In this document: positions 45,555-55,536 of the stretch, in pieces
Layout of the letters: each line of letters opens with the position of its first letter
How positions within the stretch are numbered: the first letter of the stretch is position 1
Assembly (NCBI GenBank): GCA_945901085.1
Contig: CAMDJV010000002.1
Span: forward strand, 1-64,000
Direction: 5' to 3'
DNA length: 64,000 nucleotides
Source of the DNA: Rhodovarius crocodyli
GTDB lineage: Bacteria > Pseudomonadota > Alphaproteobacteria > Acetobacterales > Acetobacteraceae
The notes under the pieces: model-generated
The model's input: the letters and a program-made list of their open reading frames with translations, nothing else
Told to the model about the DNA's origin: nothing
Database searches by the model: none
Made by a program: the position numbers and the translations under genes

Positions 45555-45583
45555 GTTTTGCCCTCCACCGCCTCACTACATCC

Positions 45584-46969
45584 ATGAATCAACCGCCGCA
45601 CCGCATCTGCATCCTGGGGGCGGGTATTGGCGGCTTGGCCGCGGCCATGCTGCTGGCGGCCGCAGGGCGGGAGGTCATGATCCTGGAGCGGGCCGAGACG
45701 CTCGGCGGCAAGGCCCGCGCCATGCCCCCCGCCCATGGCATCACCATGCTGCCGGTGTTCGAAGCACTTTTCGGCGCCGCTGCCATGCCGCCACTCACCC
45801 GGCAGCGCCTGCTGGCGCGGCATCTCTGGTCCGATGGCGCCACGCTCGACATCGTCGATGGCATACAGGCCAATGCCGATGCCATTGGCCGCTTCGCCGG
45901 CCCCGCCGCGTCGCAGGGTTATCGTGATTTCGCCGCCCGCGGCCAGCGCTATTTCGAAGCGCTGCAAAAGCCCTTCATCGAGACGCATCGGCCGGCTGCC
46001 ACGGCGCTTTCCACCAATGCCACCATGATGCGCCGCCTGGGGCTGGCCGCGCTGGCGCCCCTTTGGGAGGGTTTGGCCGAGCATTTCGCCGCCCCCCGGC
46101 TGCGCCAGGTCTTCGCCCGAGCGGCCTGCTGCGTCGGCGCCTCGCCCCTGCAGGCCCCGGCCACGCTGATGATGATCTCCCATATAGAACAGCAGGGCGT
46201 GTGGCAGGTGGAAGGCGGGGTGATGGCATTGGTGGAGGCCATGGCAGCGCATGCCATGGCACAGGGCGCCACCATTCGCCTGGGCACCGAGGCGGTGGAT
46301 ATCCGGCTGCGGGGCGGGCGCGTGGCCGGCGTCGCTTTGGCGAATGGCGAAATCCTGCCCGCCGATGCGGTGATCGCCAATGCCGATGCCGCCGCCATTG
46401 GCGCTGGGCTGCTGGGGCGTGAGGCAGCAAAGGCGGTGCCGGCCCTGCCGGCCAATAAGCGCTCCTTCTCGGCCATCATCTGGCGGCTCAAGCCACGCGA
46501 TATGCCGGCGCAAAGCATTTTCCTGCCCGATGAACCCACCGCCGAATTTACCGAACTGCATTACCGCAATAGGCTGGCCACCCAGCCCAGCCTGCAAATC
46601 TCCGGCGGCAGCACCGCCATGGTGATGGCGCCCGCCCGCACCGATACCCGCCCGCTACCGCCAGAAGCGCTCACCGCCTGCGCGGCTGCCGCGCGCGCGC
46701 TGGCTGCCGCCGCTGGTCACAATTTCGAATTCGAGGACGACGTGCCCCAAACACCCGATGATTTCACCCGCCAGTATCCCGGCACTGGCGGCGCGCTATA
46801 TGGCCAGGCGGCGCATGGCTGGTCAGCCAGCTTTGCCCGCCCGGTGGCGCGCACCTCGCTGCCCGGCTTTTACCTCTGCGGCGGTGGTACACATCCCGGC
46901 GCGGGGGTGGCGATGGCAGCCATATCCGGCCGCCTGGCCGCCGAGCGGGTGATGGAGAACCGGCCATGA
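45584..46969 (+). CDS. crtD: CrtD-like carotenoid 3,4-desaturase with FAD-domain deletion (crtD1)
   Basis: This 461-residue CrtI-superfamily flavoprotein is closest to CrtD, the hydroxyneurosporene/methoxyneurosporene desaturase. The dinucleotide fold G12-A-G-I-G-G17 and the C-terminal FYLCGGGTHPGAGVAMAAISGRLA block are present. However, the segment after GGKARAMPPAHG lacks the conserved (D)GGPTV strand found in its homologue at 53134, a clean in-frame loss of about six residues. It may therefore have altered activity. ATG 45584 has no ribosome site but lies just after a PpsR-type promoter. Its stop overlaps the crtC start (ATGA), and crtC-crtD pairing is typical of spirilloxanthin clusters. 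Confidence 0.8.
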   Translation: MNQPPHRICILGAGIGGLAAAMLLAAAGREVMILERAETLGGKARAMPPAHGITMLPVFEALFGAAAMPPLTRQRLLARHLWSDGATLDIVDGIQANADAIGRFAGPAASQGYRDFAARGQRYFEALQKPFIETHRPAATALSTNATMMRRLGLAALAPLWEGLAEHFAAPRLRQVFARAACCVGASPLQAPATLMMISHIEQQGVWQVEGGVMALVEAMAAHAMAQGATIRLGTEAVDIRLRGGRVAGVALANGEILPADAVIANADAAAIGAGLLGREAAKAVPALPANKRSFSAIIWRLKPRDMPAQSIFLPDEPTAEFTELHYRNRLATQPSLQISGGSTAMVMAPARTDTRPLPPEALTACAAAARALAAAAGHNFEFEDDVPQTPDDFTRQYPGTGGALYGQAAHGWSASFARPVARTSLPGFYLCGGGTHPGAGVAMAAISGRLAAERVMENRP

Positions 46970-47898
46970 TGCGCGGTTGGGAGTTCAACCAGCCCGTGCC
47001 CGAGCGCGGCTATTGCTGGTGGTATGTCGATGCGCTCTCCGATGATGGCAAGCACGGCATCACCATCATCGCCTTCATCGGCACCGTCTTCTCGCCCTGG
47101 TATGCCTGGGCTCGGCGCGGCGGCGGGGGGGACCCTTCCAACCATTGCTGCATCAATGTCTCGCTCTATGGCCGCCCCAGCCGCTGGGCGATGACCGACC
47201 GGCAAAGCTGGACCATGCGCCGCGATGAAAACAGCTTCACCGTGGGCCCGAGCGGGCTGGTCTGGGACGGCAATAGCCTGACCATTTCGATCAATGAGGT
47301 GACAGCACCCTTCCCCAGCCGCCTGCGCGGCACGTTGCGGCTCACGCCCCAGGCACTCTCCACCCGTGCCTTCCAGCTCGATGCCAAGGGCCGGCACAAA
47401 TGGCACCCCATCGCGCCCCGCTCGCGCGTTGAGGTGGAGTTCCAACAACCCGGCCTGCGCTGGTCCGGCCCCTCCTATTTCGACACCAATGCCGGTGCTG
47501 CGCCGCTGGAGGAGGATTTCTGCGACTGGGATTGGTGCCGCGCGCCCATGCCCGATGCCACGGCCATCCTCTACAACACCCAGCGGCGGGACGGCACCTC
47601 ACAGGCCCTGGCCCTGCGCGTCGGCCATGATGGCTCGGTTGAGGATTTTCCCTCGCCGCCGGTGGTGCAATTGCCCAAGACCCTATGGCGCATCGCCCGG
47701 CCCACACGATCGGAAAACGGCCAAGCCTCGGTGGTCAAAACCCTGGAGGACGCGCCCTTCTACTCCCGCTCGGTCATCAACACCCATTTGCTGGGCCGGG
47801 ATGTGACGGCGGTGCATGAAAGCCTGGAACTGGACCGCTTCGCCAATCTCGCCGTGCAGGCCCTGCTGCCGGTGAAGGTGCCGAGGCCCTTCTGGTAG
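46966..47898 (+). CDS. crtC: carotenoid 1,2-hydratase CrtC
   Basis: The 310-residue acyclic carotenoid hydratase adds water across the terminal C1-C2 double bond of neurosporene or lycopene, an early step toward spheroidene or spirilloxanthin. Family blocks are GYCWWYVDALSDDGKHGITIIAFIGTVFSPWYAWAR, NHCCINVSLYGRPSRWAMTDR, GRHKWHPIAPRSRVEVEF, DWDWCRAPM and LEDAPFYSRSVINTHLLG...HESLELDRF. It overlaps crtD1 by four bases, and its 3' end is overlapped by the yqaA-like frame. No signal peptide is seen. This gene makes the acyclic (non-zeaxanthin) nature of the cluster certain. Confidence 0.96.
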   Translation: MMRGWEFNQPVPERGYCWWYVDALSDDGKHGITIIAFIGTVFSPWYAWARRGGGGDPSNHCCINVSLYGRPSRWAMTDRQSWTMRRDENSFTVGPSGLVWDGNSLTISINEVTAPFPSRLRGTLRLTPQALSTRAFQLDAKGRHKWHPIAPRSRVEVEFQQPGLRWSGPSYFDTNAGAAPLEEDFCDWDWCRAPMPDATAILYNTQRRDGTSQALALRVGHDGSVEDFPSPPVVQLPKTLWRIARPTRSENGQASVVKTLEDAPFYSRSVINTHLLGRDVTAVHESLELDRFANLAVQALLPVKVPRPFW

Positions 47899-48332
47899 GC
47901 GATCTGGCCGCCTATGGAGGGCTGTTCGGCACCGCCTTCGGCGCCGCAACCCTGCTGCCCCTGGGCTCGGAGCCGGTCTTCATTGCCATGCTGCTGGGCG
48001 GCGTGGGCGTGCCGTGGCTACTGGTGGTGGTGGCCAGCCTGGGCAATATCCTGGGTGCGGTGCTGAATTGGTGGCTGGGCATGGAGTTGGAACGGTTTTC
48101 CGGCCGGCGCTGGTTTCCCGTCCCCCCGGCTGCGCTGGAACGGGCGAAGCGCTGGTATCACCGCTGGGGCCGCTGGACGCTGCTGCTGAGCTGGATGCCC
48201 ATCATTGGTGACCCGCTGACCATCATGGCCGGGGTGATGCGCGAGCGGCTCTGGATATTTTTGCTGCTGGTGAGCCTGGCCAAGACCTGCCGTTTCGCAA
48301 CACTGGCCTATATCACCTTGTATTGGGCATGA
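47892..48332 (+). CDS. YqaA/DedA (VTT)-family membrane protein with apparent CTG start
   Basis: The 146-residue membrane protein aligns end to end with Escherichia coli YqaA: GLFGTAFGAATLLPLGSEPVFIAMLLGGVGVPW, ASLGNILGAVLNWWLG, and WGRWTLLLSWMPIIGDPLTIMAGVMRE. The conserved first helix is encoded upstream of the first ATG (47988). The frame is open only from 47820 and contains no ATG, GTG or TTG there. CTG 47892 has GAGG (47883-47886) five bases upstream and overlaps the crtC stop by seven bases, so I propose it as the start. Family members are thought to act in lipid scrambling or membrane integrity. It lies 24 bases before crtI. Confidence 0.78.
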   Translation: MVGDLAAYGGLFGTAFGAATLLPLGSEPVFIAMLLGGVGVPWLLVVVASLGNILGAVLNWWLGMELERFSGRRWFPVPPAALERAKRWYHRWGRWTLLLSWMPIIGDPLTIMAGVMRERLWIFLLLVSLAKTCRFATLAYITLYWA

Positions 48333-48356: not shown

Positions 48357-49868
48357 ATGCTCGATAGCACCCACGACCCGCGGCCCCATGCCGTTGTCAT
48401 CGGCTCCGGCTTCGGTGGCCTGGCCGCCGCGGTGCGGCTTTCCGCCCGGGGCTGGCGGGTCAGTGTCGTCGAGAAGCTCGATGCCGCGGGCGGGCGGGCC
48501 TATGTCTATCGGCAGGATGGTTTCACCTTCGATGGCGGCCCCACCATCATCACCGCGCCCTATCTGCTCGAAGAGCTATGGGCGATGTGCGGCAAAACCA
48601 TGAGCGATGACATCACGCTCAAGCGCATGGACCCCTTCTACGAAATCCGCTTCGATGACGGCACGGTGTTCCGCGCCTTTGACGATGTCCAGCGCATGAA
48701 GGCCGAGGTGGCGCGCATCAATCCCAGCCAGGTCGAGGGTTTTGAGCGCTGCATCGCCGATAGCGAAAAAATCTACGAGGTCGCCTTCGCCAAGCTGGCC
48801 GATCAGCCCTTCCATAGTTTTTGGTCCATGCTGAAGGAAGCGCCCGATATGCTGCGCCTGGGCGGCATGCGCAGCGTCTTCAGCAAGGTGAGCGACTATT
48901 TCACCGATGAAAAACTGCGGGTGGCCTTCAGCTTCCACCCCCTGCTGATCGGCGGCAATCCGCTGACCACCACCGCCTATTACTGCCTGATCCAGCATCT
49001 GGAGCGGCTGCATGGGGTGCATTACGCAATGGGCGGCACGGGCGCGATCGCCGCCGGCCTGGTGCGCCTGGCCGAGGGCAATGGCGCCCAGTTCCGCTAC
49101 AATGCCGAAGTGGCCGAGATCACGGTCAAGAATGGCCGGGCGAGCGGCGTGCGGCTGGCCAATGGCGAGACCATCGCCGCCGATATTGTCGTCAGCAATG
49201 CCGATCCGGCCTGGACCTATTCCCGCCTGCTGAAGACCCAGAAGCGCAAGCGCTGGACCGATGGCAAACTCTCCCGCGCGAAATATTCGATGAGCCTCTT
49301 CGTCTGGTATTTCGGCACCAATCGGCGCTTCGAGGATGTCTATCACCACGCCATGGTGCTGGGGCCGCGTTATGAGGGGCTGCTGCGCGACATCTTCTCC
49401 GGCAAGCCGCTGGTCAATGATATGAGCCTGTATCTGCACCGCCCCTCGGCCAGCGATCCCTCAGTCGCCCCCCCAGGTTGTGATGCCTTCTATGTGCTCT
49501 CGCCGGTGCCGAACCTGACCAGCGGCACGGATTGGGCGGCCGAGGCGGAAGCCTATCGCGCCCGGGTGCAGAAGCGCCTGGAAGAGACCATCATGCCAGG
49601 GCTGGGCGAGACAATCATCACCTCACGCGTACTCACCCCGCAGGATTTCCGCGACCGGCTGCTCTCCTATCAGGGCGCCGCCTTCGCCATGCAGCCGCAA
49701 TTGTTCCAAAGCGCCTGGTTCCGCCCGCACAATAAGAGCGAGGAGGTCGAGGGGCTGTTCCTGGTCGGCGCCGGCACCCATCCGGGGGCCGGGGTGCCCG
49801 GGGTGATTTCCTCGGCCAAGATCCTCGATGAGTTGGTGCCGGCGGGGGCCGAATTCATCAGGCGGTGA
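48357..49868 (+). CDS. crtI: phytoene desaturase CrtI
   Basis: The 503-residue flavoprotein introduces three or four double bonds into phytoene to give neurosporene or lycopene. It has the FAD motif G16-S-G-F-G-G21, GFTFDGGPTIITAPYLLEELW (the GPT strand absent from crtD1), VSNADPAWTYSRLL and the C-terminal LFLVGAGTHPGAGVPGVISSAKI. ATG 48357 follows AGGAGAG at good spacing. It belongs to the crtD1-crtC-yqaA-like run. The partner gene crtB, normally adjacent, is not here, so phytoene synthesis is encoded elsewhere. Confidence 0.95.
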   Translation: MLDSTHDPRPHAVVIGSGFGGLAAAVRLSARGWRVSVVEKLDAAGGRAYVYRQDGFTFDGGPTIITAPYLLEELWAMCGKTMSDDITLKRMDPFYEIRFDDGTVFRAFDDVQRMKAEVARINPSQVEGFERCIADSEKIYEVAFAKLADQPFHSFWSMLKEAPDMLRLGGMRSVFSKVSDYFTDEKLRVAFSFHPLLIGGNPLTTTAYYCLIQHLERLHGVHYAMGGTGAIAAGLVRLAEGNGAQFRYNAEVAEITVKNGRASGVRLANGETIAADIVVSNADPAWTYSRLLKTQKRKRWTDGKLSRAKYSMSLFVWYFGTNRRFEDVYHHAMVLGPRYEGLLRDIFSGKPLVNDMSLYLHRPSASDPSVAPPGCDAFYVLSPVPNLTSGTDWAAEAEAYRARVQKRLEETIMPGLGETIITSRVLTPQDFRDRLLSYQGAAFAMQPQLFQSAWFRPHNKSEEVEGLFLVGAGTHPGAGVPGVISSAKILDELVPAGAEFIRR

Positions 49869-49882
49869 TCGCCGCCTGAACC

Positions 49883-50977
49883 TCACTCATACCAGCCCAC
49901 ATCCAGCGTCGCGACCTCGCCAAAGGTCGTCCCCCGCCGGCCAGCCTCGCGGATGATCGGCCAACTCGTGCCGGTCATGCTCAGAAACGGCCAAGGGTCC
50001 CGCCGGTCCCAACTGACATCGCGGGTCGTGGCCAGCCGCCGCGCCCGGCCGAAGAAGCCGGCGCGAAACGGCGCCAGATCGGTCAGCGCCGAATAGAATT
50101 GCTGCAGCACCCGCTCCGGCCGAAAGCGCGGCGGGCGGCCTTCCAGCAGCGCGGGCGCGATATCGGCGGTCTCGAAAAAATGCAGGCCTGAGGTGGTGCG
50201 CGGGTTGCACTCAATGCCCCAGGGCCGGTCATCCGCATCGAGGATGAAATCGAATGACAAAAAACCTGTCCAGCCCGTACCCGCAGCAAAGCGGGCAATC
50301 CAGGCCTCAGTCGCGGCATGGGCGATGCGCTCAAAGGCAATGGCCACCGAACCCGAAAATTGCGCGCCCTGATACAGCACATTGCCCACCACCTGCCCCT
50401 GCCGCGCAATCGCACAGGAGCTGACGATGCGGCCATGAATGCGCCGCTGCAGAATGGTTTCCTCCTCCGCCTCAGGCGGTGCCTGCCCGGCGGCGAAAAA
50501 GCGCACGCCACGGCCCGAGCATGAATGCACCGGCTTGGTGATAAAATCGCCCGAAGCCGCGAGCGCCGCGGCCTCGGGCGAGCCCAAGGCCGCGCTGGGC
50601 GGCACATCCAGCCCCAGCCCCTCTGCCAAAGTGATAAAGCCGCGCTTGTGATAGGCGCGCAGCACCGCCTCGGGCGGCATGGTCATCAGCCGTGCCGGGC
50701 TGCGCAAATGCGCCACATGCATCGTCTCCTCAGAGACGGGGACGACAAGCTCCACCCCCTCCGCCGCGATAACGCCCGCGAGATCTTGCAAATAACCCGC
50801 CTTGCTCACCGCCGGCGCCCTTACCTTATGGCTGGCGGCCACCGCGCGGGAGGCCCCGGCCAGGGTCCAGCCAAAGGGTTCGGCCACCACCACGCGCCAA
50901 TCATGGGCGGCGAAGCTGCGCGCGATATCCAGCGCCTTGGGCAACCGGCCCAGGGTGAGCAGCACCGTGCGCGTCAT
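49883..50977 (-). CDS. ATP-grasp ligase, carbamoyl-phosphate synthase-like
   Basis: This 364-residue ATP-grasp enzyme probably activates a carboxylate as acyl phosphate and joins it to an amine or thiol. It has an N-terminal Rossmann-like domain (TVLLTLGRLPKALDIARSFAAHDWRVVVAE), a central ATP-grasp core (KPVHSCSGRGVRFF near 145-160, then ILQRRIHGRIVSS), and the metal-binding block GFLSFDFILDADDRPWGIECNPRTTSGLHFFE near 250-285. The start ATG 50977 overlaps the P450 stop as ATGA, so the two are coupled. Family resemblance is to PylC/CarB-like ligases of unknown substrate. Its place between crtI and crtD2 suggests a carotenoid or membrane-related substrate, which is inference. Confidence 0.82.
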   Translation of the reverse strand: MTRTVLLTLGRLPKALDIARSFAAHDWRVVVAEPFGWTLAGASRAVAASHKVRAPAVSKAGYLQDLAGVIAAEGVELVVPVSEETMHVAHLRSPARLMTMPPEAVLRAYHKRGFITLAEGLGLDVPPSAALGSPEAAALAASGDFITKPVHSCSGRGVRFFAAGQAPPEAEEETILQRRIHGRIVSSCAIARQGQVVGNVLYQGAQFSGSVAIAFERIAHAATEAWIARFAAGTGWTGFLSFDFILDADDRPWGIECNPRTTSGLHFFETADIAPALLEGRPPRFRPERVLQQFYSALTDLAPFRAGFFGRARRLATTRDVSWDRRDPWPFLSMTGTSWPIIREAGRRGTTFGEVATLDVGWYE

Positions 50978-52338
50978 GCCCGGGGGGTGACGCGGCACAT
51001 CACCTGTTGGGTGGGGCGGGTGGTGAGCCGGGCGGCAGGGCGCACCCGGCCCGGCTCCAGCACGTGAAAATCAAAGCGGCGGAACAGCCGGGCAATCAGC
51101 AGCACCGCCTCGGTGGTGGCAAAGGCAGCACCGGCACAAACCCGCGGCCCCAGGCCAAAGGGGATATAGGTGCCCGGCGTCATTTCCGCCTCCCGCTCGG
51201 GGGTAAAACGGTCCGGGTCGAAGACATGCGGGTTGGTCCAGAAGGCCTGATGGCGATGCAGCACCCAGGGCGCCACCATGATCATGGCGCCGCGCTTGAC
51301 CTTATGGGTGCCAATGGTCGTCGCCTCCAGCGCCACCCGCGGCAGAAAGGTGATGGGCGGGTAGAGCCGCAAGGTCTCGCGAAAAATGTTGCGGATGAAG
51401 ACCAGGCTGCGGATATGCTCAAAGCCGATCTCGCCGGGCCCCACCACCGCATCGATCTCAGCACGCAGCCGCGCCACCATCGCTGGCTGCGTCGCCAGAA
51501 TGAAAAATACCCAAGTGAGCACCGAGGCAGAGGTCTCATGCCCGGCCAGGAACAGCACACCCAACTGGTCAATCAACTCCTCACGCGTAAAAGCCACCCC
51601 ATCGGTGCCACGGGCGGCGACCACGGCGGCGGTGATATCGTCAAACTTGGCCCCGGCCTCCAAATGGCTGTCCAGCAGCGCGCCAAGATGGCCGCGGATC
51701 AGCCCGCAGGCATCCAGCACGCTTTGCTTTTGCGGCGCGCTTTTCCAGGCCGGATCAAAAATCAGCCGGCTGATTTCCACCTGCGCCACGCTGCGCTCGA
51801 ATTCGGAAAACGCGTCGAACACATCATGCGCCGCCTGGGTTTCGAGGCTGGTGGAGAAGACGGTGCGGCAAATGATATCGGCGGTAAGGTGGCTCATCGC
51901 CAAATCAAGCGAGAAGGGCGTGCCCGCACCAGCGCCCAGCGTGGCCTCGGCCTGCTCCACGCCCGCCACCATATCGGGGAAGGCGCGGCTCACCCGCATC
52001 ATGGTCAATGACGGGTCGATCATCGCCCGCTGCCGCGCCCAGGTCGCGCCGGAACTGACGAAAATACTATCGCCGATCAAGGGCTCAAGCGCTTCGACCA
52101 TCAGGTCCGATTTGGGGAAAATCCCCTCCGGATCAGCCAGCACCCGCCGCACCTGCGCCGGTTCATTGACGATCAAAATCGACCGGCGGGACCAGCCGAG
52201 CCAGCCGATCTTCTGCCGAAAGGCAGCAGCCGGCAGCAGGCTCAACAAATCCCCATCACCCTGCAGGGCGAGGCGGATCAGCGAGATGACAGCCGCATAG
52301 GAGGTGGGCCGGGGCGGGGCATAAAGGGCTGCGCTCAT
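50974..52338 (-). CDS. cytochrome P450
   Basis: The 454-residue bacterial P450 shows the I-helix AGHETS (265-270), the ExxR pair E321-T-L-R324, HRHQAFWTNPHVFDPDRF and the heme loop FGLGPRVCAG with ligand C401. It has no membrane anchor. It heads the minus-strand pair with the ATP-grasp gene. Its ATG 52338 lacks a ribosome site and lies 32 bases after TTGACA of an imperfect PpsR-type palindrome, mirroring crtD1. The sequence resembles the CYP102/CYP4-like clan more than CrtS or CYP97-type proteins, but I cannot place it exactly. Terminal hydroxylation or carboxylation of a carotenoid end group is a plausible role. Confidence 0.88.
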   Translation of the reverse strand: MSAALYAPPRPTSYAAVISLIRLALQGDGDLLSLLPAAAFRQKIGWLGWSRRSILIVNEPAQVRRVLADPEGIFPKSDLMVEALEPLIGDSIFVSSGATWARQRAMIDPSLTMMRVSRAFPDMVAGVEQAEATLGAGAGTPFSLDLAMSHLTADIICRTVFSTSLETQAAHDVFDAFSEFERSVAQVEISRLIFDPAWKSAPQKQSVLDACGLIRGHLGALLDSHLEAGAKFDDITAAVVAARGTDGVAFTREELIDQLGVLFLAGHETSASVLTWVFFILATQPAMVARLRAEIDAVVGPGEIGFEHIRSLVFIRNIFRETLRLYPPITFLPRVALEATTIGTHKVKRGAMIMVAPWVLHRHQAFWTNPHVFDPDRFTPEREAEMTPGTYIPFGLGPRVCAGAAFATTEAVLLIARLFRRFDFHVLEPGRVRPAARLTTRPTQQVMCRVTPRA

Positions 52339-52369
52339 GATTGCGATTGCGAAACTTTACAGTGACAAC

Positions 52370-52387
52370 TGTCAAGTGGCATTGTCA
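52370..52387. promoter_or_regulatory. imperfect PpsR-type palindrome between P450 and membrane-protein genes
   Basis: The site reads TGTCAAGTGGCATTGTCA, matching TGT-N12-ACA except for the first A of the right half. The minus strand of its left half is TTGACA (52375-52370), a perfect -35 box for the P450 gene with 31 bases to its ATG, the same spacing as at crtD1 (29 bases). An overlapping shorter palindrome TGACA-AC-TGTCA occupies 52363-52374. The 73-base gap serves both divergent units, so one regulator could control the P450/ATP-grasp and membrane-protein/crtD2 genes together. Confidence 0.5.
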
Positions 52388-52411
52388 GCACCGGAGGACA
52401 AGAGAGGCCCC

Positions 52412-53137
52412 ATGCTGCTGATGTTTCATGCCCTGGTGGCAATCCATATCGTGGCGGGAACGACCGGCGCCATCACCTTCTGGGTGCCCGTGCTGGGCCG
52501 CAAAGGCGGCGTGGACCATCGCAAATGGGGCAAAATTTTCACCCTGGCCATGCTCATCACCGGCAGCCTCGCGATTTGCATGAGCATCATGACGCTGATC
52601 GACCCCATGGGGACCCACCCGCATATGCCCGCAGGCTATGATGAGGTCTTCGTGCGGGCCATTTTCGGCTGGTTGATGCTGCATATGGGCATTCTGACGG
52701 TCAATCTGGCCTGGTATGGCTGGCTCTGCGTGCTGAATCGGCGCGACCATCTGGCCAATCGCACGCCGCTCAATATGGGCCTGCAAGCCGCGGTGCTCAT
52801 CGCCGCGCTGAACTGCGCCCTGCAAGGCTGGCTGGCGGGAGAATATCTGATGATCGGCCTCGCCGTGGTGGGCATCGCCACCGGCGTGACCAATCTGGTC
52901 TTCCTGCTCAACCCCAAGCCTGCCCCACTGGTATGGCAAAAGGAGCATCTCAAGGCGCTCGTCGGTGCCGGAATCAGCGTCTATACGGCGTTCTTCGCCT
53001 TTGGCTCGGTGCGCATCCTGCCAGAACTGGCGCTCAACCCGGTGATGTGGGCCATCCCGCTCACCACCGGCGTGCTGATGATCCTCTACCACTGGCGGCA
53101 GATCGGCATGATGCGCCGGCGCGTGGTGACGCCCTGA
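52412..53137 (+). CDS. polytopic membrane protein (DUF2306-like) before crtD2
   Basis: This 241-residue protein has about seven hydrophobic segments, with an N-terminal HALVAIHIVAGTTGAITFWVPVLGRKGGVDHRKWGKIFTLAMLITG block resembling DUF2306-type proteins (conserved HIxxG, KGGxxHRxxG). No catalytic function is known for them. ATG 52412 follows GAGAGG; the 25-codon extension upstream would run through the operator and is rejected. Its TGA is overlapped by the CTG start of crtD2 (CTGA), so the two are coupled. It may scaffold or accompany carotenoid enzymes in the membrane, which is inference. Confidence 0.7.
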   Translation: MLLMFHALVAIHIVAGTTGAITFWVPVLGRKGGVDHRKWGKIFTLAMLITGSLAICMSIMTLIDPMGTHPHMPAGYDEVFVRAIFGWLMLHMGILTVNLAWYGWLCVLNRRDHLANRTPLNMGLQAAVLIAALNCALQGWLAGEYLMIGLAVVGIATGVTNLVFLLNPKPAPLVWQKEHLKALVGAGISVYTAFFAFGSVRILPELALNPVMWAIPLTTGVLMILYHWRQIGMMRRRVVTP

Positions 53138-54618
53138 AAATTCTGGTTGTGGGCGCCGGCGTGGCCGGCCTGACCGCGGCGGCGGACCTCGCGCGGCGCG
53201 GTGCCGACGTCACCATCCTGGAGCGCGCCGCCAGCCATGGCGGCAAGATGCGCCATGTCATGGTCGATGGCCGGGGCATTGATGGCGGACCCACCGTCTT
53301 CACCATGCGCTGGATTTTCGAAGGCCTCTTTGCCGATGCCGGCGAGAGCCTGAGCGATCATCTGGGCGTCTATTCCACCGATGTGCTGGCCCGCCATGCC
53401 TGGCGCGCCGGCGGCAGGCTTGATCTCTTCGCCGATATCGAGGCCTCGGTCGAGGCGATCGGCGATTTTGCCGGTGCTGCCGATGCCCGTGGCTATCGCG
53501 ATTTCTGCACCCGCGCAGCCGCCATCTACCGCACGCTGGAGGGCAGCTTCATCGGTGCGGAAAAACCCTCGCAGCTCGATCTCGTGCGCCGGGTGGGGCT
53601 CTCCCGCCTTGGCGAATTATGGCGCACGGCCCCCTTTCGCAGCATGTGGTCAGCGCTGGGCGATCATTTCAGTGACCCGAGACTGCGGCAATTATTCGGC
53701 CGCTACGCCACCTATGTGGGCGCCTCCCCCTGGTTCGCACCGGCCACGCTGATGCTGGTGGCCCATGTCGAGCAGGATGGGGTCTGGCTGGTGCAGGGCG
53801 GCATGCGGGCGGTGGCCGATGCCCTGCGCGGCCTCGCCGAACGGCAGGGCGCCAGATTGCGCTGCGGTGCCGATGTCACCCGCATCATCATCGAGGGTGG
53901 CCGCGCCAAAGGCGTGGAACTGGCCAATGGCGAGCGCCTCATGGCCGATGCGGTGCTGTTCAATGGCGATGCCGCAGCCCTTCCCAGCCTCGGCGCCCCA
54001 GGACCAAAACCAGCCCAGCGCAGCCTCTCCGCCATCACCTGGTGCGTCAACGCGCCCACATCCGGCTTTGATCTGGCGCATCACAATGTCTTCTTCGCCG
54101 AGGATTATGCCGAGGAATTTCGCGCCATTTTCAACCGGCGCGAGGTGACGGCCGCCCCCACCATCTATATCTGCGCCCAGGATCGTGGGCTGCAGCCGCC
54201 CCCACCGGGCACCCCCGAACGCCTGCTGCTGCTCATCAACGCCCCCGCCGATGGCGATAGCCGAGACTTCAACGCCAGCGACTACATCGAGCGCACCCAT
54301 TCCCTACTGGCATCCTGTGGCCTGCATATCGGCGAAGGCAGCGCGGTGGCGACCACCCCCTCCGGCTTCAATGCGCTGTTTCCCACAACCGGCGGCGCGC
54401 TCTATGGCATGGCCAGCCATGGCGCGACCGCGACATTGCGCCGCTCCGGCGCGCGGGGGAAAATTCCCGGCCTCTATCTGGCCGGCGGCTCGGTGCATCC
54501 GGGACCGGGCGTGCCCATGGCCGCCATGTCAGGCCGCCTCGCCGCCGCCCGCCTGCTCGAAGATGCCGCCGGGCGGAGCACATCGGTGGGTTTTGCCCCA
54601 GGACGCCACAGCCGCTGA
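53134..54618 (+). CDS. crtD: CrtD carotenoid desaturase (crtD2), apparent CTG start
   Basis: This 494-residue flavoprotein is the better match to classical CrtD (1-hydroxyneurosporene/methoxyneurosporene desaturase): fold motif G7-A-G-V-A-G12, GGKMRHVMVDGRGIDGGPTVFTMRWIFEGLFADAG, LARHAW, YATYVGASPWFAPATLMLVAHVEQDGVWLVQGGM and GLYLAGGSVHPGPGVPMAAMSGRLAAARLLED. The N-terminal beta strand ILVVGAG needs a start before 53140. The only candidate is CTG 53134, overlapping the preceding TGA as CTGA; GTG 53149 would remove most of the strand. Together with CrtC it would build the conjugated, hydroxylated end groups. It lies apart from crtC. Confidence 0.88.
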   Translation: MKILVVGAGVAGLTAAADLARRGADVTILERAASHGGKMRHVMVDGRGIDGGPTVFTMRWIFEGLFADAGESLSDHLGVYSTDVLARHAWRAGGRLDLFADIEASVEAIGDFAGAADARGYRDFCTRAAAIYRTLEGSFIGAEKPSQLDLVRRVGLSRLGELWRTAPFRSMWSALGDHFSDPRLRQLFGRYATYVGASPWFAPATLMLVAHVEQDGVWLVQGGMRAVADALRGLAERQGARLRCGADVTRIIIEGGRAKGVELANGERLMADAVLFNGDAAALPSLGAPGPKPAQRSLSAITWCVNAPTSGFDLAHHNVFFAEDYAEEFRAIFNRREVTAAPTIYICAQDRGLQPPPPGTPERLLLLINAPADGDSRDFNASDYIERTHSLLASCGLHIGEGSAVATTPSGFNALFPTTGGALYGMASHGATATLRRSGARGKIPGLYLAGGSVHPGPGVPMAAMSGRLAAARLLEDAAGRSTSVGFAPGRHSR

Positions 54619-54720: not shown

Positions 54721-55536
54721 TTGCGGATCAGTGCCGGCTGCCAAATCACCTATGACTGCCCACAACCCACCCCCATGCTGCTCATGGTCAGCCCGCATGC
54801 CTCACGCATGCCCGACCTGATAGGCCCGCACAGCATCACCTTCGCCCCCCCGGTGGAGCCGCGCGGCTATATCGATGGCTTCGGCAATGCCTGCACCAGA
54901 ATCATGGCGCCGGCCGGCCGGATCACCATCACCACCCAGTTCATGATCGCCGATTCCGGCGCGCCCGAGACCATCCACCCCGAAGCCTGGCAGCGCCGGG
55001 TCGAAGAATTGCCCAATGACATCCTGGTCTATCTGCTGGGCAGCCATTATTGCGACACCGACCGCCTGGCGAATATCGCCTGGGAGCTCTTCGGCCAGAC
55101 CGCAACCGGCCATGCCAGGGTGCAGGCGATTTGCGACTTTGTGCATAACCACATCAGCTTCGGTTATGAGCATGCCCGCGCCACCCGCACCGCATCCGAA
55201 GCCTTTGTCGAGCGGCAGGGCGTATGCCGGGATTATGCCCATCTCGCCGTCACCCTCTGCCGCTGCGTGAATATCCCCGCCCGCTATTGCACCGGCTATC
55301 TGGGCGATATGGGCACGCCCCCGCCGCATGGGCCGATGGATTTCGCCGCCTGGTTCGAGGTCTTTCTCGATGACCGCTGGCATTGCTTCGATGCGCGCAA
55401 CAACACACCCAGGATTGGCCGCATCCTGATGGCGCGTGGGCGCGACGCGACGGATGTGGCCATTGCCACCACCTTCGGCCCCTGCACCTTGTCAGGCTTC
55501 GCGGTGTTTTGTGATGAGGCCGCTCGCATCACCTGA
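54721..55536 (+). CDS. bacterial transglutaminase-like protein
   Basis: The 271-residue protein has an N-terminal beta domain (about 1-95; ITYDCPQPTPMLLMVSPHASRMPDLIG) and a transglutaminase-like cysteine domain with the nucleophile C169 in RQGVCRDYAHLAVTLCR and the aspartate in CFDARNN. Where many transglutaminases show HAW, this protein has MDFAAWFEVFL, so the classical His is not obvious. Probably a cysteine peptidase or amide hydrolase, substrate unknown. The likely start is TTG 54721 with AGGACC upstream; GTG 54691 is also possible. It follows crtD2 by about 100 bases on the same strand. Confidence 0.8.
   Translation: MRISAGCQITYDCPQPTPMLLMVSPHASRMPDLIGPHSITFAPPVEPRGYIDGFGNACTRIMAPAGRITITTQFMIADSGAPETIHPEAWQRRVEELPNDILVYLLGSHYCDTDRLANIAWELFGQTATGHARVQAICDFVHNHISFGYEHARATRTASEAFVERQGVCRDYAHLAVTLCRCVNIPARYCTGYLGDMGTPPPHGPMDFAAWFEVFLDDRWHCFDARNNTPRIGRILMARGRDATDVAIATTFGPCTLSGFAVFCDEAARIT

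Follow-up and report, generated by a model that had tools for sequence, protein, structure and literature searches.

Gemmatoxanthin, the carotenoid of Gemmatimonas phototrophica, bears a carboxyl group at C16, a 1′-methoxy group, and a 3′,4′-double bond; the gene for its carboxylation was not identified, the authors' guess being a CruH-like protein, and the gene cluster of this organism was received horizontally from Proteobacteria (PMC8342508). Gemmatoxanthin is a photosynthetic carotenoid of the acyclic C40 type that is oxidised at one end, shows features of the hydratase, methyltransferase, and CrtD type, and comes from a phototroph with a Proteobacteria-like gene cluster; in these respects it resembles the product that we propose for the locus described here, but no conjugate has been reported for it. 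We regard it as the sole chemical precedent for a carboxylate of this kind. In purple bacteria, the ends of acyclic carotenoids are tailored in an O2-dependent manner by the spheroidene monooxygenase CrtA, for which we know of no ligase partner. CrtA is not a P450, and the genes for rhodopinal formation and glycosylation were called unknown in a 2023 review (PMC10604819).

Among the enzyme families concerned, the CYP97-type hydroxylases (LUT5 of plants; PDB 6j94) have carotenoids as substrates. They hydroxylate cyclic end groups, however. On the ligase side, the closest family is PRK06849/ATP-grasp_3 (NF005315, PF02655), which is without an assigned function. A search of the open-access literature revealed no paper linking an ATP-grasp protein with a photosynthesis gene cluster, and for a P450 in this setting only a passing gene label was found there. 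The component families are known. Judging from the open-access literature, the unit reported below and the role that we propose for it appear to be new.

Gene organisation in the window

The window analysed here, a stretch of 64,000 nucleotides from Rhodovarius crocodyli, contains the genes listed in Table 1. The ligase and P450 genes overlap by 4 bases in the form ATGA (TCAT on the top strand at 50974-50977), the ligase start codon being located within the last codons of the P450 reading frame. Coordinates and sequence therefore agree with the overlap claimed in the original prediction, and the ligase is predicted to be translationally coupled to the P450. The same −4 ATGA overlap was seen again in 68 of 103 ligase-P450 pairs. 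The pair had also been placed between crtI and a second crtD gene (crtD2). While crtI does adjoin the ligase gene, the P450 gene is separated from crtD2 by the gene at 52412-53137 (+) for a membrane protein, here named MEMB, which the prediction had overlooked, as it had the breadth of the distribution and the P450 loci without a ligase.

Table 1. Features of the P450/ATP-grasp locus and its surroundings (positions in the window)
Feature	Position	Strand	Remarks
crtD_B, crtC-linked CrtD paralogue	45581..46969	+	NF045637, 412 bits, under cut-off 580
crtC-like carotenoid 1,2-hydratase	46966..47898	+	NF045922, 308 bits, under cut-off 400
crtI-family phytoene desaturase	48357..49868	+	TIGR02734, 610 bits; convergent with ligase gene
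ATP-grasp ligase, 364 aa	49883..50977	-	ATG at 50977; Pfam and NCBIfam matches; relative of PRK06849/PF02655
Cytochrome P450, 454 aa	50974..52338	-	PF00067 match
P450/MEMB intergenic region	52339..52411		Conserved element TTTACA-N8-TGTC at 52356
MEMB, 7-helix membrane protein, 241 aa	52412..53137	+	Divergent from P450; sub-threshold DUF2306 match
crtD_A, 1-hydroxycarotenoid 3,4-desaturase, MEMB-linked clade	53140..54618	+	NF045637, 631 bits, over cut-off 580

The two CrtD proteins encoded in the window are paralogues that fall into different clades: in a phylogenetic tree, the MEMB-linked CrtDs grouped together (96/100) and separately from those linked to crtC. The start codon of crtD_A is uncertain, and the crtC-linked crtD_B lies on a long branch of the tree. 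One idea is that in genomes with both CrtDs the two carotenoid ends may be treated differently. The host is a phototroph, as a second contig carries crtE, crtF, bchC, bchX, bchY, bchZ, pufL, pufM, and pufC; the puf genes were called from PF00124 and the other photosynthesis gene names were read from sequence and gene order. No convincing lycopene cyclase was found in this genome. Directly before crtI, at 47988-48332, a short gene for a VTT-domain (DedA-like) protein is located, and members of this family were present in ten clustered loci, mostly adjoining crtI. A gene for a transglutaminase-like protein follows crtD_A (54721-55536); it also adjoins crtD in the close relative L103 and was not seen in the other loci.

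The intergenic region between P450 and MEMB contains the element TT[T/G]ACA-N7-9-TGTC, which occurs in a single copy in the whole window, at 52356. It recurs in 63 of the 94 homologous regions compared, where 0.02 would be expected. This element could represent a divergent pair of −35 regions or an operator. The original prediction had described a PpsR-like palindrome shared with carotenoid genes at the P450 promoter. A conserved element is indeed present at 52356, but the palindrome TGT-N12-ACA occurs in the window only 4 times, compared to about 6 times expected by shuffling, and as its frequency is not above chance, it was discarded as evidence for regulation in this window. Among the homologous intergenic regions, 18 of 94 contained the TGT-N12-ACA box compared to 1.2 expected, mainly those of Sphingomonadaceae among the rows listed. 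Judged from these motifs, control of the P450/MEMB promoter by PpsR is plausible.

Spread of the unit and its association with phototrophy

Ligase and P450 were each searched in 299 genomes of the same family (family sample), the neighbourhoods were fetched, and the genes were clustered. A scan with one genome per species yielded 80 further loci, whose taxa were taken from the record titles. A full-flank set was defined by at least 4 kb on either side of the P450 and comprised 80 loci. As loci were selected for their resemblance to either the ligase or the P450, the counts describe orthologues rather than P450s in general. The usual order, found in nearly all loci, was ligase-P450 facing MEMB-crtD, hereafter called the unit, and it was often adjoined by crtC, crtI, and the puf operon. 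Within the full-flank set, MEMB was present in all 80 loci and is thus by presence the steadiest member of the unit; a crt gene was found within 5 kb in 78 loci and the ligase in 75. The crtC gene lay beside the P450 in 39 of the 80 loci, and some loci had no crtC nearby. The adjacency of P450 and ATP-grasp genes near carotenoid genes is therefore conserved.

Carriers of the unit belong to the Acetobacteraceae, including Paracraurococcus ruber (locus L138), the Sphingomonadaceae (Novosphingobium), Caulobacterales-type bacteria (Aquidulcibacter, Phycosocius), the Hyphomicrobiales, and the gammaproteobacterial Halieaceae (Luminiphilus), and in alpha- as well as gammaproteobacteria the unit adjoins puf, bch, and crt operons. 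In the Halieaceae the ligase gene has the opposite orientation. Chance adjacency of the pair and the carotenoid genes is ruled out by this conservation across classes: the ATGA overlap in 68/103 pairs and the neighbourhood kept in 78/80 full-flank loci show that the setting of the pair is not accidental. In a phylum sample of 398 genomes, we detected only one further orthologue (49% identity), which is located inside a bch-crt cluster, whereas all other matches had at most 37% identity; in this sample the pair is thus not widespread away from carotenoid genes, and a wide occurrence there would have spoken against the prediction. No orthologue was found in plasmid and viral collections.

Reaction-centre genes (PF00124, L/M subunits) were present in 26 of 27 ligase carriers of the family sample compared to 98 of all 299 genomes (Fisher p 4e-13). 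The sole ligase carrier without PF00124 is an 80% complete genome. Outside the family sample, other loci led to 38 carrier genomes, and PF00124 was detected in 35 of these. Since the tests take no account of how the genomes are related, the p value makes them look more independent than they are; the same pattern was nevertheless seen in two classes. That the orthologues form a widespread pair of secondary metabolism with no relation to phototrophy was considered and is ruled out by the reaction-centre genes in 35/38 carriers and by the phylum sample. About two thirds of the family's phototrophs do not possess the unit. By name, the carriers belong to aerobic genera such as Novosphingobium, Falsiroseomonas, Paracraurococcus, Rubritepida, and Luminiphilus, which fits the O2 dependence of a P450. 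The unit occurs almost only in aerobic bacteria with bacteriochlorophyll-based photosynthesis. Neighbourhood counts and PF00124 enrichment together bear out the view that the pair belongs with acyclic-carotenoid genes and phototrophy.

The P450 was present in all 27 ligase carriers of the family sample (69-100% identity). Six genomes of the family contained a P450 with 56-59% identity and no ligase, five of them in the order crtD-crtC-P450, and four sampled Halieaceae had kept P450-MEMB-crtD with no detectable ligase. Since the ligase was never found without the P450 in the family sample, while the P450 does occur without the ligase, there is a somewhat better than even chance that the ligase works on a product of the P450, which would be the first to act. 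The distance matrices of ligase, P450, and MEMB were correlated with r values of 0.88-0.92, compared to at most 0.16 after shuffling, as expected for jointly inherited genes; ligase divergence correlated with that of the P450 and MEMB with r values of 0.89 and 0.92, respectively. Between alpha- and gammaproteobacteria, the P450 was by sequence the most constant member of the unit (60% identity) and the ligase the least constant (41%), which would fit one conserved oxidation followed by a less constrained conjugation.

Predicted properties of the encoded proteins

The P450 (PF00067, E value 2.9e-65) contains the haem-binding cysteine loop FGLGPRVCAG, the ExxR motif as ETLR, and the I-helix motif AGHET. 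About 135 of some 450 positions, including the key columns of these motifs, were at least 97% conserved in 101 homologues. In a phmmer search against PDB sequences, the best match with a solved structure was plant CYP97A (171 bits), which is a single database rank and does not prove a common substrate. The ligase matched PF02655 with an E value of 3.6e-7 and the PRK06849 equivalog NF005315 with 198 bits (cut-off 406), sharing with this family the full-length profile match and the catalytic residues. Its AlphaFold2 model (pLDDT 92.7) shows a full-length ATP-grasp fold and was superimposed on PurK by VIA-align with a Z value of about 25 over 312 residues (rmsd 3.3). No close PDB relatives of the ligase were obtained by single-sequence search, and a profile search led to distant ones (2pn1). 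The residues K111, K148, E256, N258, and R260 were invariant in 38 homologues; from general knowledge of the ATP-grasp fold, we take K111 and K148 to be the ATP-binding lysines and E256 and N258 to be metal ligands. The intact catalytic residues of both proteins point to active enzymes and do not indicate the substrate.

For MEMB, a match to DUF2306 (PF10067) was obtained with 20.6 bits, which is under the gathering cut-off of 31.6, and 24 of 37 MEMB homologues matched DUF2306 at E values up to 0.01. Histidines 12, 36, 69, and 179 are invariant. The predicted structure (pLDDT 90.3) gave no clear fold match in the PDB. A role as a dihaem electron donor similar to cytochrome b561 was considered and rejected, as the match to duodenal cytochrome b was weak (Z 6.4) and no better than those to unrelated helical bundles.

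Proposed carotenoid tailoring and its alternatives

The unit probably adds a chemical group to the light-harvesting carotenoid, and we are fairly confident that it serves in tailoring of a carotenoid end group. In the scheme that we infer, with regard to substrate, order of reactions, carboxylate, acceptor, and role of MEMB alike, CrtI would form an acyclic polyene, CrtC and CrtD would hydrate and desaturate one of its ends, and the P450 would oxidise an end group with O2, assisted by MEMB, which might donate electrons or handle the substrate. The product of this oxidation, in the simplest case a terminal carboxylate, would then be activated by the ATP-grasp ligase and joined to an amine or a similar nucleophile. 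A tailoring unit of this kind, combining P450 oxidation and ligase conjugation of an acyclic carotenoid in aerobic anoxygenic phototrophs, is our best explanation overall, and we give it slightly more credence than doubt. The specific conversion of a carboxylate to an amide is doubtful. The best explanation is opposed by the lack of a conserved aldehyde dehydrogenase in the unit, as a result of which the P450 would have to turn over three times to yield a carboxylate, unless an enzyme encoded elsewhere took part, by the nearest solved P450 sequences, which are CYP97A ring hydroxylases and thus alcohol makers, and by the spirilloxanthin reported in the Halieaceae, a unit-carrying family.

The relationship to ring hydroxylases would equally suit a P450 that only hydroxylates the carotenoid, with the ligase esterifying the hydroxyl group with an activated acid, e.g., an amino acid, to give an aminoacyl ester instead of an amide. 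The acyl-phosphate chemistry of the ATP-grasp fold, which serves varied nucleophiles, is compatible with such a product, and D-Ala-D-lactate ligases form an ester. Nevertheless, we consider an ester unlikely, because a few ligase homologues showed weak profile similarity to the carboxylate-amine ligases MfnD and MptN, whereas none of the ligase homologue profiles had a similarity specific to depsipeptide ligases. It is also conceivable that P450, MEMB, and CrtD act on the carotenoid while the ligase has a different substrate and shares no more than its regulation with photosynthesis. The persistence of P450-MEMB-crtD without a ligase in several lineages, the faster evolution of the ligase (alpha-gamma identity 0.41 compared to 0.60 for the P450), and its opposite orientation in the Halieaceae are in agreement with this assumption. 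However, in the family sample the ligase was never found without the P450 (27/27), it is predicted to be translationally coupled to it, and its divergence tracks that of P450 and MEMB (r 0.89 and 0.92), so that a ligase with a separate task appears improbable.

The strict link to phototrophy and the puf and bch neighbours in many genomes would fit just as well if the unit modified a lipid of the photosynthetic membrane other than a carotenoid, such as a bacteriochlorophyll side chain, a quinone, or a hopanoid. As the conserved direct neighbours are carotenoid genes, with crtD in 78/80 loci, MEMB is linked to a CrtD clade of its own, and the ligase-less clade has the order crtD-crtC-P450, we judge a non-carotenoid substrate to be just as improbable as the separate ligase. 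Slightly less probable still is that P450 and MEMB carry out one of the ordinary steps of spirilloxanthin synthesis in an O2-dependent form, the product being plain spirilloxanthin and the ligase an accessory. Spirilloxanthin is the pigment reported for the unit-carrying Halieaceae, and a nearby crtC is missing from some loci, but in 39/80 loci crtC and P450 lie side by side. Moreover, with crtC, crtD, crtE, and crtF in the window's genome no ordinary step is missing, and about two thirds of the family's phototrophs manage without the unit.

The pigment reports for the Halieaceae allow a comparison at the level of the family. For Luminiphilus and relatives, spirilloxanthin and no additional pigment were observed by UV/vis spectroscopy (PMC3679898), and for Congregibacter litoralis spirilloxanthin was identified by HPLC with a UV-VIS detector (PMC3176799). 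Identification by UV/vis does not settle the end groups, because the absorption bands may stay in place when the chain end is altered beyond the conjugated system. A strongly polar product, however, should shift the HPLC retention, and the HPLC report therefore counts against a conjugate if Congregibacter litoralis carries the unit. The original prediction mentions carotenoic acids in some Acetobacteraceae phototrophs, and Paracraurococcus ruber, a carrier of the unit, is one such case; for a carotenoic acid in Craurococcus, nothing was found in the open-access literature.

Few genes have been assigned to the end-group chemistry of photosynthetic carotenoids in aerobic phototrophs, and the unit, which is carried by aerobic anoxygenic phototrophic bacteria from two classes and several orders, provides named candidates. 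Taken furthest, the tailoring proposal would mean that many alpha- and gammaproteobacterial aerobic anoxygenic phototrophs make a nitrogen-containing carotenoid, an acyclic carotenoic acid formed by the P450 and amidated by the ligase, which would have been overlooked since the absorption spectrum is what spirilloxanthin is mostly recognised by. We regard this as a speculation, marginally less probable than the amide chemistry itself. According to a compilation of 2012, no natural hetero-carotenoid had been found by that time (PMC6268381). Against this background, an amide product would be notable as a natural carotenoid bearing nitrogen, and, if true, spectrum-based assignments of spirilloxanthin in carriers would need rechecking.

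Some loci showed additional genes. In one genome, a gene for a GMC oxidoreductase (L096:12118-13761) has a 4-base overlap with crtC, and proteins of similar length adjoin crtC in L093 and L097; if the P450 forms an alcohol, the enzyme of L096 could oxidise it further. In the Halieaceae loci L217, L223, L224, and L216, a 131-aa gene and a gene for a 295-aa membrane protein are found at the position of the relatives' ligase, the small gene not being called in L216. Paralogues of the ligase with at most 37% identity are encoded together with a Rieske oxygenase in biosynthetic clusters of an unrelated kind. Such distant paralogues (about 30-37% identity) are part of a recurring cluster in L207, L208, L209, and partly L205 and L206, which comprises the Rieske oxygenase, an MBL-fold protein, and an adenylate-forming-looking enzyme without a Pfam match, and in L207 and L209 also an epimerase and a ketosynthase III. 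This cluster represents another pairing of an oxygenase with an ATP-grasp protein.
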